Below are positions 122 to 5,520 of a DNA stretch of 64,000 nucleotides, piece by piece. Made by a program: the position numbers and the translations under genes. The stretch lies in the NCBI RefSeq assembly GCF_000953825.1, contig NZ_BBUL01000095.1:62001-126000 (forward strand). Reading direction: 5' to 3'. Every line of letters starts with the position of its first letter. The stretch's first letter is position 1. The notes below the pieces were generated by a model. The model worked only from the letters and a program-made list of their open reading frames with translations. It made no database searches and was not told where the DNA came from. The stretch is from Cellvibrio sp. OA-2007. Its GTDB lineage: Bacteria; Pseudomonadota; Gammaproteobacteria; Pseudomonadales; Cellvibrionaceae.

Positions 122-309
122 AAAGTAAGGGAATCGCTAAAGACTGAAGAAATAAGGGCTGGAATTGTACCTGCCGAGGGTGGGGGATGCCATCTTTTAT
201 AGGTTTGTGCGGTCTCGCTGCGCATGCTGGGTGAGTTTGTCTATACTCATACGACTCTTTTATCCAGCTTGTTCCAATTTCCATTAACGCCCCTATGAAG
301 GAACCGATA

Positions 310-1089
310 ATGATAACTAGCCCTATCCCGCAGATTATTGCCCAGCTTGAAACCCGTATCCTTACCCTGAGCTTCAATCGCCCTGAACGAAAAAATGCTC
401 TAACCCTTGCGATGTATGGTGCCTTGGCGGATTTGATTAACGCCGCCGATGACGATAACGAGGTGCGCGTGGTGGTATTGACGGGCACCGATGAATTTTT
501 TACCAGTGGCAATGACCTGATGGATTTTATGAATGAACCGGAGATTCATGAGAGTCACCCAGTCGTACGTTTTATGGAAGCGTTGCGCCATTGCAGCAAA
601 CCCGTGGCTGCAGTGGTGCGTGGCCATGCGGTGGGAATTGGTACGACTATGTTGTTGCATTGCGATTTGGTCTATGCCGCAAATGATGCGCGTCTGCAGC
701 TACCGTTTGTAAATTTGGGTTTGTGCCCGGAGTATGCCAGCAGTTATTTGGTGCCGCGTTTGGTTGGGCAGCAAAAGGCAGCGGAGTTATTTTTGTTGGG
801 TGAGCCATTTTCTGGCGCCGATGCGGCGCTATTAGGCTTGGTTACCCAAGCAGTTCCGGTGGATGAACTTAATGAGTTTGCGCGCGCAAAAATTGCGCGC
901 CTCGCATTGCAACCGCCAGGTGCTGTGCGCCGCACTAAAGCCTTGTTGCGCGCGGCAACCAATGTTGCGGTGGATGCGTCATTAAGTACGGAATATACCG
1001 GTTTTGCGGCTGGTTTGGCGTCGGATGAATGCAAGGAATCGGTCACTGCTTTTTTTGAAAAGCGCGCACCGGACTTCTCTCGCTTTTAA
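310..1089 (+). CDS. Enoyl-CoA hydratase/isomerase (crotonase family)
   Basis: Crotonase-fold protein of 259 residues. The CoA/oxyanion-hole motifs are visible as SGNDLMDF and GHAVGIGTTMLLHCDL. The stretch LGLCPEYASS carries one glutamate in the place where delta3,delta2-enoyl-CoA isomerases have their single catalytic acid. I therefore favour an isomerase over a classical hydratase, but this is inference. I chose the ATG at 310 because AAGGAA lies about 7 bases upstream; an in-frame ATG at 295 would add five residues. The next gene, 24 bases on, is a dienoyl-CoA reductase-like SDR, so the pair probably handles unsaturated fatty acids in beta-oxidation. Confidence 0.85.
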   Translation: MITSPIPQIIAQLETRILTLSFNRPERKNALTLAMYGALADLINAADDDNEVRVVVLTGTDEFFTSGNDLMDFMNEPEIHESHPVVRFMEALRHCSKPVAAVVRGHAVGIGTTMLLHCDLVYAANDARLQLPFVNLGLCPEYASSYLVPRLVGQQKAAELFLLGEPFSGADAALLGLVTQAVPVDELNEFARAKIARLALQPPGAVRRTKALLRAATNVAVDASLSTEYTGFAAGLASDECKESVTAFFEKRAPDFSRF

Positions 1090-1113
1090 ATAAAAATACC
1101 CTGAGAAAATATT

Positions 1114-1932
1114 ATGAATACTCCGTTTGATTTCAAAAATAAAAACGTACTCGTCGTGGGTGGTACCAGTGGCATCAATCGCGGTATTGCCGAAACCTTT
1201 GCCAAAGCAGGTGCGCGTGTTGCGGTGGTGAGCCGTACACAGGATAAGGTGGACGACACCATCGCAGCATTAAAAAATTGTGGCGCTGCGGATGCTCGTG
1301 GTTTTGCCGCCGATGTGCGCGAAGTAGAGGCAGTAAAAAATGGTGTAGCCGAGATTGCGGCTGCATGGGGAAAACTGGATGTGGTTGTGTCGGGCGCGGC
1401 GGGAAATTTTCCCGCACTAGCGATGGGTATGTCACCCAATGGGTTTCGCTCTGTGATCGAAATCGATTTGCTCGGCACTTTCCATGTGATGCAGGCGGTG
1501 TATCCGCATCTGCAAAGACCGGGCGCGTCGATTATTAATATATCCGCGCCGCAAGCAGAAATTCCGATGGCGGGGCAGAGCCATGTGTGTGCTGCAAAAG
1601 CGGGTGTAGATATGATTACCCGCACCTTGTGTTTGGAGTGGGGTGTGGAAGGTGTGCGCATTAATTCTATTATCCCCGGCCCGATTGATAATACCGAAGG
1701 CATGAAACGTTTAGCGCCAAATGAAGCGATTCGCGCAGCGGTAAAAAAATCTGTACCACTGCAGCGCATGGGTTCAACCGATGATATCGCCAATGCGTGT
1801 TTGTTTTTAGCGTCTGATTTTGCCAGCTATATCAGTGGTGCTGTTATTCCGGTTGATGGCGGTTGGGCACAGGGTGGCGCCGCTTTAGTAGGGGCAGGTT
1901 TGGCGGAGATGTTGAAATCCAAATCAACCTGA
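1114..1932 (+). CDS. SDR-family oxidoreductase, 2,4-dienoyl-CoA reductase-like
   Basis: Short-chain dehydrogenase/reductase of 272 residues. The Rossmann motif GGTSGINRG (residues 16-24) binds NAD(P)H and the SGAAGN stretch is the NNAG equivalent. The classical YxxxK is not present: the lysine is kept in VCAAKAG but valine stands at the tyrosine position. The same loss is typical of the peroxisomal/bacterial 2,4-dienoyl-CoA reductase group, which uses other residues, so this argues for that subfamily rather than for a dead enzyme. It sits 24 bases after a crotonase-family gene and is probably co-transcribed with it. The exact substrate is not proven by the sequence. Confidence 0.8.
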   Translation: MNTPFDFKNKNVLVVGGTSGINRGIAETFAKAGARVAVVSRTQDKVDDTIAALKNCGAADARGFAADVREVEAVKNGVAEIAAAWGKLDVVVSGAAGNFPALAMGMSPNGFRSVIEIDLLGTFHVMQAVYPHLQRPGASIINISAPQAEIPMAGQSHVCAAKAGVDMITRTLCLEWGVEGVRINSIIPGPIDNTEGMKRLAPNEAIRAAVKKSVPLQRMGSTDDIANACLFLASDFASYISGAVIPVDGGWAQGGAALVGAGLAEMLKSKST

Positions 1933-2253
1933 TTTTTTCACAGGCAAAAAATTGCAATATTATTGAGGCTGGCTATGGCGACTGGTTCGCAATTCAGCCT
2001 CGCATCCTCTTGTTTAATTCTATCTTGCTCGCTTAGTATCTTTCGTCCCGCCACTTTTTCTGATTTTATAAAACCATAAGAATAATTAGTGTTTTTGGTC
2101 GTCACATAAATAATAAAAAATAGTCGTTGTGTTTCAAACTTACTTTGAATGGTGAGAGAACTGGATAAGCACATCAACGTCTGGTGTGTTTTTTTGAACA
2201 ATAATCTTATTCGCCTGCGGTAATTTTATACAAAGGTGACAAAAGGAAATGTT
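1933..2253. other. Intergenic region without a recognised gene
   Basis: This stretch of about 320 bases is AT-rich in its second half and separates the fatty-acid pair from the GH5-like gene. It should hold the promoter of the latter, but I see no convincing -35/-10 pair and no palindromic operator like the one in front of the GH26 gene. A reverse-strand reading frame here lacks a good start and is not called. Confidence 0.5.
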
Positions 2254-4020
2254 ATGAATTCGTCTTTCTCTCTAGCAAAAAAAACCTTGGCGCTCGCCAG
2301 TATAGGCATGTTATCAATCCCTGCGGCAGCAGATTGGATTGCTAACGGAGGGGTGCTACTGGACCCTAATCGGCAGCCGTTTGTATTTCGCGGTATTACG
2401 GTAAATCACAGCCTAGCTCCTGAACGTACCGTTCAAGCAATTAAATATGCTGGTGCCGCAGGTGCTAACGCCGTACAAATTGAATTTGCTGCCGGTGTCT
2501 ACGGCAATGGATCAGATTTGAATGGCGTTCAATTGCGTGCAATTGTCCAAGCGTGTAAAGAAAGTAAAACGGTCTGTGTGTTAGAGCCGAATGATGTTGC
2601 GGGATACCCCAATGCGATGGGTTCAAAGTCGCCAACAGATATAGTCGGGTATTATTATCAGTCAGATATTCGATCGGCTCTTATCGGTCAGGAAGATTAC
2701 ATTATGCTCGGCCTGGGTAATCAGGCACTAGGTGAGATGTCAGGGAATCTTGAATATGTGTTTCGCATGCAAACGTATATTCGTTATTTTATTGACTATT
2801 TTCCACGGTTTGTGTTGGTGGTAGATGGTAACACTTGGGGGCAAGATCCTACTAAAGGAATGCATGAATTAGTGGAATATATGAGGCCTTATGGAAGCTC
2901 TGGGCAGAAAATTATTTATTCGGTTGAAATGTTTGATGCGTATACCGATCCACAAAAAATGCGCGATTATGTCGCGAGTTTCTCCCAGCTTGGTGCTCCT
3001 TTAGTTATTGGTGGCTTTGCGCCAGCGCCATACTATCACCCACATTATTCAGTGCCTTTACCTACCATTCCTGTGCAGCTTCCTGCTTCTAATGTTATGC
3101 AGATAGCACAAGAATATGGTGTAGGTTATTTTGCCTGGAGTTGGAGTGGCAATGAAAACTCTGCGCTGGATATGGTAACCAATTGGAATCCACAGGAATT
3201 GACCGCTTGGGGTAATTTGGCGATTAATGATGTAAATGGTATTAAGGCAACCGCAAAACCGGCGAGTATTTTTAACAATAGTTCCAGCAGCAGTTCAGTG
3301 CCAGCCAATCAACCGCCTGTAGCTGCTATTACCTACAACTTTGAAACTGTGCGTTGCGGATCCTGGTACGGCAATGTAAGTGCATCTGGTTCTTTTGACC
3401 CGGATGGGGATCCACTGACTTATCAATGGGAAATCAGTGGTTACGGAGGCCCGATCACATCAACTGAACCTTCTGTGCGTTTTTATATGCAGCCGCCGCA
3501 TTCTTACGCCATCAAGTTAACGGTAAGTGATGGAAGAGGTGGAGTGACTAGCACGTCGATTGTTCGTAATCATACGAATTCAGACAATTGTATAGGTTCA
3601 AGTTCAAGCTCATCGATCATTCCGTCCAGTTCATCCGTACCTTCGGTTGTTTCATCAAGTTCGTCTAGACCTTCCAGTGTTTCCAGTTCATCGCGCAGTT
3701 CTTCCAGTGCAATGGCGGCAGGCAATTGCACTTATGTAATTAACAGCCAATGGAACAATGGCTTTACAGCAGCAGTGCGCATTAAAAATACGGGGTCACA
3801 GCCTATTAATGGTTGGAATGTTAATTGGCAATATAGCGATGGTTCCAGAATCACTAATCTTTGGAATGCATCGTTGTCTGGCTCTAATCCCTATAGCGCA
3901 AAAAATCTAAGCTGGAATTCAACTATCCAGCCAGGTCAAACCATTGAGTTTGGTTTTCAGGGTAGTAAAGGTGCTGGCGCTGCACCTATTCCAGCGGTGA
4001 CAGGAAGTGTTTGCCAATAG
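2254..4020 (+). CDS. Secreted GH5-like protein without catalytic glutamates, with PKD-like and CBM2 domains
   Basis: Protein of 588 residues. Residues 1-27 form a Sec signal peptide ending near PAAAD. Residues about 28-335 align by eye with GH5 mannanases of subfamily 8: VLEPNDVAGY, SALIGQEDYIMLGLGN, VVDGNTWGQD, LVIGGF and FAWSWSGN follow the family order. The acid/base glutamate of the usual GNEP is Gln157 (GNQA), the nucleophile of IGEFG is Gly254 (IGGF), and the SIHMY histidine is replaced (SVEMF). Hydrolysis by the usual retaining mechanism should be impossible. A short Ser linker, a PKD-like domain (about 350-445), a long Ser linker and a cellulose-binding CBM2 (about 489-588) follow. 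The ATG at 2254 is preferred because AAAGGAAA precedes it; an in-frame GTG lies at 2236. It is probably an extracellular glycan-binding protein. Confidence 0.85.
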   Translation: MNSSFSLAKKTLALASIGMLSIPAAADWIANGGVLLDPNRQPFVFRGITVNHSLAPERTVQAIKYAGAAGANAVQIEFAAGVYGNGSDLNGVQLRAIVQACKESKTVCVLEPNDVAGYPNAMGSKSPTDIVGYYYQSDIRSALIGQEDYIMLGLGNQALGEMSGNLEYVFRMQTYIRYFIDYFPRFVLVVDGNTWGQDPTKGMHELVEYMRPYGSSGQKIIYSVEMFDAYTDPQKMRDYVASFSQLGAPLVIGGFAPAPYYHPHYSVPLPTIPVQLPASNVMQIAQEYGVGYFAWSWSGNENSALDMVTNWNPQELTAWGNLAINDVNGIKATAKPASIFNNSSSSSSVPANQPPVAAITYNFETVRCGSWYGNVSASGSFDPDGDPLTYQWEISGYGGPITSTEPSVRFYMQPPHSYAIKLTVSDGRGGVTSTSIVRNHTNSDNCIGSSSSSSIIPSSSSVPSVVSSSSSRPSSVSSSSRSSSSAMAAGNCTYVINSQWNNGFTAAVRIKNTGSQPINGWNVNWQYSDGSRITNLWNASLSGSNPYSAKNLSWNSTIQPGQTIEFGFQGSKGAGAAPIPAVTGSVCQ

Positions 4021-4042: not shown

Positions 4043-4067
4043 GCCCCGCCTGGTGCGGGGCTTTTTA
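4043..4067 (+). terminator. Rho-independent terminator after the GH5-like gene
   Basis: A GC-rich 7-bp stem (GCCCCGC / GCGGGGC) with a short loop is followed by a run of five T on the plus strand, 22 bases after the stop codon. It also lies just beyond the end of the convergent cyclotransferase gene. Confidence 0.8.
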
Positions 4068-4868
4068 CTGCGAAATTCGAATCAAAAACATTTTTGGCCA
4101 GAGTTTTCCGGTAATCCAAAATGCCTGTTGTTTTTCATCCCACGCGATACCATTGAGCACTTGTTCGCTGTTATTAAGTTCAAGTTTTTGCTTCAGTTCC
4201 GATAAATCCATTTCACCCATTACATCTCCGGTAGCGGGATCAATTTTTATAATGCGATCCTGATACCAAATGTTGGCCCAGATAAATCCCCCCGCAAACT
4301 CCAATTCATTCAGTTGCGAAATCGGTCTGCCCGCGTCAGATACCTTTATTGTTTTGGTGATACGGAAATCGTCAGGACTGTGAAAGTACAGTGCGTCGCT
4401 ACCATCACTGCGGATAAGTTGTCTGCCATCTTCGGTCAAACCCCAGCCTTCACCTTTGTAGGCGATGCTGTTTTGGTAATTCAGCGTGGTTTTGTCGTAA
4501 ATCAATAGGGTTTGTTCTTGCCAAGTTAGCAGATACAGTTTATCGCCCAGAAGTGCCAAGCCTTCAGCAAAATAGCGTTCCGGAATCGTTTGTTTTTTGG
4601 TAAAAGGTGCCGATATTTTTGCCCATGTGCTGGCGGGTTCCGCGATAGGATAACTGACCAGAAGGGATTGGTTATAGAGGCCGCTGCTTTCATAAAAATG
4701 ATCGCCATGCACCAATAAACCTTGGGTAAAAAGAGTGGGTTTGTGCGTGCGCTCAGCAATCAATTCATAGGCGATTGATTCAGCTGCCGTCACTGGGGCA
4801 GGGTTCGCTATAAACAATAAGCTGGTGCACAATAGTGCGCAAAGTATTTGTTTCACTCGGAATTCCAT
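4065..4868 (-). CDS. Glutaminyl-peptide cyclotransferase, periplasmic
   Basis: Protein of 267 residues with a signal peptide (VKQILCALLCTSLLFIANPAPVTAA) followed by a plant-type glutamine cyclotransferase beta-propeller. Family landmarks are FTQGLL near the N-terminus, ERYFAEGLA, GEGWGLT, LNELEF with IWANIWYQD, and VLNGIAWD near the end. The enzyme converts N-terminal glutamine of peptides to pyroglutamate. I chose the ATG complementary to 4866-4868 because it gives a clean signal peptide; a longer frame would run into the divergent gene at 4891. Only 22 bases separate the two starts, so their promoters must overlap or lie inside the coding regions. Confidence 0.85.
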   Translation of the reverse strand: MEFRVKQILCALLCTSLLFIANPAPVTAAESIAYELIAERTHKPTLFTQGLLVHGDHFYESSGLYNQSLLVSYPIAEPASTWAKISAPFTKKQTIPERYFAEGLALLGDKLYLLTWQEQTLLIYDKTTLNYQNSIAYKGEGWGLTEDGRQLIRSDGSDALYFHSPDDFRITKTIKVSDAGRPISQLNELEFAGGFIWANIWYQDRIIKIDPATGDVMGEMDLSELKQKLELNNSEQVLNGIAWDEKQQAFWITGKLWPKMFLIRISQ

Positions 4869-4890
4869 CTTTATTTGAAAGGCTCTCATC

Positions 4891-5520
4891 ATGAAGCGTT
4901 TGCGTTCGTTTGTCAGCATTACCCTGATCGGTGGATTTATGGTAATCCTGCCGATTGCGATTTTTATGTGGTTAGTGGAATGGTTGTTGGGGATAGTGAG
5001 CTCACTGATTGAGCCGCTCAGTGTCTGGTTAGTAGAGCAGACGGCATTTACCAATTTTATGGCTGATGTGCTGGGCGTTTTGTTGTTGCTCAGCGCCTGT
5101 TTTTTGATTGGTTTGTTTATTAAAACCAGTGTGGGTGAGTGGGTTCACGACCAAATTGACGCCTGGCTAACCCGGTTGGCGCCTGGCTATAAAACAATTC
5201 GCGAAATAGTGTCCCAATTATTGGGTGGCGAGGGTAATACCTCGCTGTTAAAAGGCGAGGTGTGCCGTGCGTATTTGATGGGTCGTGCTGCCGGAGTGTC
5301 GGTAACGGCGATTGTGACCGCTAAACACAGTAATGGTGATGTTACCGTTTATGTGCCGACAGCACCCATTCCTACATCGGGGTTTGTTTATCATTTGTCC
5401 GCTGAATGTGTGGATTTATTGCCGCATATCAATGTAGAGACTGCCATGCGTACCGTAATTGCGTGCGGCAGCGGGTCGCAGATCATCTCCGGGGATGCGG
5501 TAGCGGGGGCAGCAAAATAG
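4891..5520 (+). CDS. DUF502 family membrane protein
   Basis: Protein of 209 residues with two hydrophobic segments, at residues about 8-40 and 58-78. The landmark stretches are GGFMVILPIAIFMWLV, a loop, then LIGLFIKTSVGEWV and APGYKTIREIVSQL. These features match the DUF502 family of inner-membrane proteins of unknown function. AAAGG lies 8 bases before the ATG. It is divergent from the glutaminyl cyclase gene. No catalytic residues can be pointed to and I assign no function. Confidence 0.8.
   Translation: MKRLRSFVSITLIGGFMVILPIAIFMWLVEWLLGIVSSLIEPLSVWLVEQTAFTNFMADVLGVLLLLSACFLIGLFIKTSVGEWVHDQIDAWLTRLAPGYKTIREIVSQLLGGEGNTSLLKGEVCRAYLMGRAAGVSVTAIVTAKHSNGDVTVYVPTAPIPTSGFVYHLSAECVDLLPHINVETAMRTVIACGSGSQIISGDAVAGAAK

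Follow-up and report, generated by a model that had tools for sequence, protein, structure and literature searches.

The question raised by this locus is what role is left to a secreted β-mannanase barrel from which both catalytic glutamates have disappeared. The window, which is the whole analysed stretch of 64,000 nucleotides from Cellvibrio sp. OA-2007 (contig NZ_BBUL01000095.1, positions 62,001 to 126,000), contains an open frame at 2254–4020 on the plus strand, with an ATG at 2254 and the stop at 4020, which encodes a protein of 588 amino acids. A first-pass annotation, made from the letters alone, described it as a secreted GH5 pseudoenzyme. The sequence comparisons reported here indicate that the protein is probably a secreted pseudoenzyme, which arose from GH5_8 mannanases in a clade of Cellvibrio and whose barrel, anchored to cellulose, binds without hydrolysing. 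Close relatives in other Cellvibrio genomes have lost the glutamates as well, which suggests that the gene is not decaying but has taken on a conserved new function, for example the holding of plant-wall sugars.

Across 21 genomes of the genus the search yielded 41 matches, made up of the window gene, 15 further members of its clade, 23 proteins at 32–36% identity and two short matches. The clade, called here clade A, thus comprises 16 genes in 10 of the 21 genomes, the other 15 being 47–55% identical to the window gene, and the GH5 frame is open in all 16. In a tree of 47 rows all clade A genes lie on one side of a branch with 100/100 support, and the window row forms a long branch.

According to the available part of PMC3059134, eight residues are conserved in the active site of GH5_8 enzymes (Arg, His, Asn, Glu, His, Tyr, Glu and Trp), with the proton donor sited after strand 4 and the nucleophile at the end of strand 7. 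In the HMMER alignment with the solved mannanases 4fk9, 1bqc and 4y7e, the window protein shows GNQA under GNEP and IGGF under IGEF or IGAF, the latter in the 4y7e entry, which itself has Ala at the nucleophile position. The barrel and its relevant positions are listed below, with counts for the 16 clade A members and for the 29 active rows of the alignment.

2332..3285, plus strand: GH5_8-type (β/α)8 barrel without the two catalytic Glu (Pfam, HMMER alignment, AlphaFold2 model)
2476..2478, plus strand: Gln75 for the conserved Arg (Gln in 16/16 clade A, Arg in 29/29 active rows)
2482..2484, plus strand: Glu77, a new acid (16/16 clade A; Val in 27 and Pro in 2 active rows)
2590..2592, plus strand: Asn113 for the conserved His of VHD (Asn in 16/16 clade A, His in 29/29 active rows)
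2719..2721, plus strand: Asn156, the conserved Asn, kept (16/16 clade A)
2722..2724, plus strand: Gln157 for the acid/base Glu (Gln in 16/16 clade A, Glu in 29/29 active rows)
2926..2928, plus strand: Glu225, a new acid, for the conserved His of HMY (11 Asp and 5 Glu in clade A, His in 29/29 active rows)
2932..2934, plus strand: Phe227 for the conserved Tyr (Phe in 15/16 clade A, Tyr in 29/29 active rows)
3013..3015, plus strand: Gly254 for the nucleophile Glu (Gly in 16/16 clade A, Glu in 29/29 active rows)
3031..3042, plus strand: YYHP, residues 260–263, after strand 7 (invariant in 16/16 clade A; block pLDDT 74)
3142..3144, plus strand: Trp297, the conserved Trp, kept (16/16 clade A)

Clade A therefore lacks both residues required by the GH5 retaining mechanism, and its pocket has a different, fixed form. 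Six of the eight site residues are replaced in clade A, four of them by a single residue in all 16 members; along with the two glutamates, the Arg, both His and the Tyr of a GH5_8 mannanase are gone, and just Asn156 and Trp297 are kept. Residues 261–263 of the YYHP motif correspond to gaps in all 29 active rows. The site is more constant than its surroundings: six of its eight places are invariant in clade A, as compared with 60 of 318 across the domain (hypergeometric p 7e-4), and of the changed places only, four of six are invariant (p 0.013), although the rows are related and these p values are guides only.

The AlphaFold2 model of the window protein (mean pLDDT 88.1, pTM 0.89, from 31 aligned rows) is a (β/α)8 barrel closest to GH5_8 structures, and in a second-look alignment its ten closest solved entries are mannanases. 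The match in fold is partly built in, since active mannanases are among the rows from which the model was made. In the model Gln157 follows strand 4, in a block whose pLDDT averages only 73, and Gly254 is near the end of strand 7; PMC3059134 assigns the proton donor and the nucleophile to these places. The alignment and the model thus bear out the assignments of the first-pass annotation, namely the GH5_8-type domain, Gln157 and Gly254 at the catalytic places and the altered histidines of VHD and SIHMY, now Asn113 and Glu225. The first two exchanges are also fixed in relatives, with Gln and Gly in all 16 clade A members, from 10 genomes. The exchanges of Arg75 for Gln and of Tyr227 for Phe, the new Glu77, the YYHP motif, the locus and the clade are additions to that description.

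An ordinary active mannanase that uses other glutamates, with the loss being an alignment slip, is extremely improbable. The slip itself is ruled out by the profile alignment, the multiple alignment and the model, and neither alignment nor model offers another conserved Glu in the catalytic places. Fourteen of the 16 clade A members have no acid within five residues of Gly254, and 12 have none within that distance of Gln157; the window protein does have Glu162 near Gln157, but this residue is not conserved in the clade, and no point in favour of this explanation was found. A mutation of one strain or a sequencing error is also ruled out, by the N-Q and G-G pairs in all 16 members from 10 genomes. 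No orthologue keeping both glutamates was found within the clade, either at the locus or elsewhere.

The two new acids raise the possibility of relocated chemistry. Of the new acids, only Glu77 and position 225 reach conservation in 15 or more of the 16 clade A members (both in 16); five further acidic places conserved to that degree are acidic in most active rows as well. Exactly two acids have thus been gained and fixed while two were lost. The model places them on strands 2 and 6, which face each other in an eight-strand barrel, and Gln75, Asn113, Gln157 and YYHP are fixed along with them. An enzyme with its catalytic pair moved to Glu77 and Glu/Asp225, possibly inverting and with a changed substrate, is nevertheless unlikely: variation between Asp and Glu would be unusual in a catalytic residue, and enzymes of clan GH-A are not known to have an acid pair of this kind. 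The fuller proposal built on sequence and model, in which Glu77 and Asp/Glu225, together with Gln75, Asn113, Gln157 and a YYHP lid, would make a new and perhaps inverting site in the old retaining-glycosidase barrel, acting on a new wall glycan from a cellulose anchor, is quite unlikely. The available part of PMC3526467 does allow for “alternate mechanisms” in GH5 proteins of this kind.

Selection on the GH5 domain alone was estimated with a Nei-Gojobori script for ten clade A pairs and nine active pairs. The five close clade A pairs, three of which share the rows G014c, G016 and G009a, gave dN/dS of 0.100, 0.045, 0.113, 0.125 and 0.116 at dS of 0.33–1.45. In one further clade A pair dS was saturated (printed as 0.0). 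Among the four pairs that include the window copy one was saturated and three gave dN/dS of 0.16–0.26 at dS of 1.5–2.2, values which are not trusted. The nine active pairs, most with dS above 1, gave 0.024–0.045 in seven cases and 0.072 and 0.127 in the other two. The low values in the close clade A pairs therefore place these pseudoenzymes under purifying selection, somewhat weaker than in most active pairs, and speak against decay. The proposal that the gene is maintained and not decayed holds in this respect for the clade; for the window copy, whose pairs all have dS of at least 1.5, selection is not reliably measurable.

A decaying relic, in which activity was lost after duplication and selection persists on secretion and the CBM2 domain only, would be in line with the active paralogue that remains in the genome and with the locus being empty in genomes G006 and G002. 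The open GH5 frame in all 16 members, the dN/dS of 0.045–0.125 for GH5 alone and the fixed replacements make it very unlikely.

The remainder of the gene is organized as follows.

2241..2249, plus strand: ribosome-binding context AAAAGGAAA ahead of the ATG (upstream comparison)
2254..2331, plus strand: Sec-type signal peptide, M1–A26, with KK, a hydrophobic core and AAA before D27 (translation, by eye)
3307..3561, plus strand: PKD domain, PKD_4 (Pfam)
3589..3717, plus strand: Ser-rich linker, ends approximate (translation)
3724..4014, plus strand: CBM2 (Pfam)
4043..4066, plus strand: terminator-like GC hairpin and T run (by eye, unscored)

Pfam matches cover residues 37–300 (GH5 Cellulase), 352–436 (PKD_4) and 491–587 (CBM_2). 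The frame is open over 2254–4020 with the predicted signal peptide, PKD domain, Ser linkers and CBM2, as had been proposed, the domains being recognized by Pfam and the rest from the translation. In the sequence, then, the catalytic residues are lost and the gene is intact and conserved. CBM_2 is present in all 18 full proteins compared, and its three surface Trp, Trp500, Trp537 and Trp554, which would have the role known from CBM2a, are invariant in all 18. The label that Pfam gives to 15 of these 18 proteins, GH5 Cellulase, is an annotation trap; the other three miss Pfam GH5 at E 0.001. An NCBIfam scan returned only matches far below the family cut-offs. Of 19 upstream regions that were compared, 10 contain the sequence AAAAGGAAAT, and among 10-mers in these regions the ribosome-binding context alone is common to more than four.

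The protein would leave the cell by Sec, and its CBM2 would dock it on cellulose. The rebuilt cleft of the barrel may then bind a glycan (a protein is less likely) and leave it uncut, so that the barrel would act as a large binding module, working alongside the cell's active mannanase to target, capture or prime polymers of the plant wall. Sensing across the membrane, one of the roles suggested earlier, looks unlikely because the signal peptide is of the cleavable type and no other hydrophobic anchor is seen in the translation by eye. There is no lipobox Cys (zero Cys in residues 1–30).

Some observations weigh against a plain binding barrel. The Trp residues that the active rows conserve at positions 54, 86 and 199 are absent in all 16 clade A members, and the old mannan-binding register is therefore probably gone. 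The two new conserved acids could mean chemistry instead of binding, dN/dS in clade A is above that of most active-paralogue pairs, and the flanking genes offer no hint of glycan use.

A clade-profile search of 144 genomes of the family gave 16 members above 500 bits, with the next match at 276 bits. Among 390 genomes drawn from the order, with at most five candidates scored per genome, none of the matches from other genera approached the clade scores; the only match at E 1e-77 (263 bits, genome G081) belongs to a locus, L072, which carries NEP and GEF. A search of a collection of 84,980 species with two peptide patterns, which relatives without both patterns escape, gave 30 loci, 11 of clade A and 19 actinobacterial at 24–33% identity. 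The 11 are seven from Cellvibrio (two of them from C. mixtus J3-8) and four on Gammaproteobacteria contigs from metagenome-assembled genomes. A GH5_8-type match with one internal TAA was observed in a different genus of the family (G055 C1:233397-234293).

Of 49 relatives outside clade A that were checked, 47 keep both glutamates and two, group B, have lost the acid/base alone. With each place counted once, the 47 consist of 14 from a first check, 32 more from a motif check and one G014 copy. The motif check covered 35 loci, L060 and L063 being left out, and accepted a motif anywhere in the domain; NEP, GEF and HMY were present in 35/35, and [VT]HD was missing in 15/35. Six full-length matches at 32–35% identity, two short ones and family-profile matches without a locus were outside the catalytic-place check. 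The genome of the window keeps one canonical GH5_8 paralogue, C5:146863, also with a CBM2-like match, and active-type paralogues were verified in seven of the ten genomes that have clade A.

Group B comprises two GH5_8-like genes, L099:8140-9930 (G014) and L045:131-1963 (G019), within the same arrays as clade A. In place of the acid/base they carry Gly or Ala, the motifs reading ASG and TSA where active enzymes have NEP-type motifs, and they have lost the Asn and one His, but keep the nucleophile Glu, the Arg and HMY, and thus represent a half-inactivated lineage. A single clade of A and B is not rejected (p-AU 0.363), so that separate losses in the two are not established. The A and B genes of G019 share 95.6% identity along 367 bases at their linker-CBM2 ends (L090:1547-1913 and L090:3469-3835), and blastn between the two genes at E 1e-3 found no match beyond this end. 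This suggests gene conversion or recent exchange.

The window protein shares with the GH5_8 β-mannanases (1bqc, 4fk9, 4y7e, 2whl and the paralogue C5:146863) the fold, the order of motifs, Asn156, Trp297 and secretion, and differs in the replacement of both Glu, the Arg, two His and the Tyr and in the YYHP insert. GH5 pseudoenzymes are a known kind, since the available part of PMC3526467 describes incomplete catalytic machinery in GH5_30, a Xanthomonas GH5_1 subgroup, three lipoproteins near GH5_8, one GH5_48 member and Rsi24C-GH5, that is, as scattered members and small subgroups. The three lipoproteins resemble the window protein in being near GH5_8, in their lost catalytic machinery and in their long branch; compared by that description only, the window protein differs in having no lipobox and in carrying PKD and CBM2. 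Rsi24C-GH5 of Clostridium thermocellum, a GH5 module without the acid/base, is said in the same part of the source to interact with crystalline cellulose, but it belongs to an anti-sigma protein that signals into the cell, and no such part is seen in the window protein. The GH28 pseudoenzymes of leaf beetles (PMC6549527, available part) are likewise multigene and connected with plant-wall digestion, with a measured phenotype, but they are of another family and another organism.

A literature search, judged by titles and the openings of abstracts, gave no description of this Cellvibrio clade; on that basis the clade appears to be new, as do its array locus and the alternative site that is fixed in it, with two acids gained. 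Unlike the scattered cases, it offers 16 genes, a half-inactivated second lineage in the same arrays, active-type paralogues, relatives in which the site is empty, and an alternative pocket that is fixed. This combination makes the role of secreted dead glycosidases directly testable in the genus, which has cultured strains.

The genes on both sides of the window gene are conserved, with labels assigned from reading the translations.

295..1932, plus strand: left flank, echA and sdr
4065..5520, both strands: right flank, qct (minus) and duf502 (plus)

Twelve of the 16 clade A genes, in nine of the ten clade genomes, sit between sdr and qct. Both flanks are on the contig in G000, G001, G003, G009 (two genes), G014 (three genes) and G016, and one flank in G017, G019 and G010; the interval of G014 and G019 also holds one group B gene each. 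Of the other four clade A genes, all outside this interval, two belong to G012, and G003 and G016 have one each, at a location whose neighbours are shared. In G006 and G002 sdr and qct are about 25 bases apart. In G005 and G007 other genes lie between the flanks, with no match among open frames of at least 100 amino acids, and in the other eight genomes a long distance separates sdr from duf502, or the two are on separate contigs. Several genomes are drafts, and location on different contigs is no proof of separate places.

The barrels at the locus are 49–55% identical to that of the window, while echA, sdr, qct and duf502 are 63–93% identical. Fast evolution was suspected from this difference, which the tree, however, attributes mostly to old paralogues. 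The same difference, the tandem genes, the old paralogues and the near-identical CBM2 ends of two neighbours resemble a repertoire, as would be expected of a protein-binding decoy or inhibitor, like the GH18-derived xylanase inhibitors, with proteins of competitors, hosts or phages as targets. This is an unlikely explanation: the site residues show higher, not lower, conservation than the rest, much of the divergence lies between old paralogues, and dN/dS is low.

In several relatives, and not in the window, the sdr–qct interval also contains two lipoprotein-like genes that share GFGSVIVNG, with a third gene between them (L104:6263-10281, L105:4367-8315, L097:4097-8297 and L098:2064-6079).
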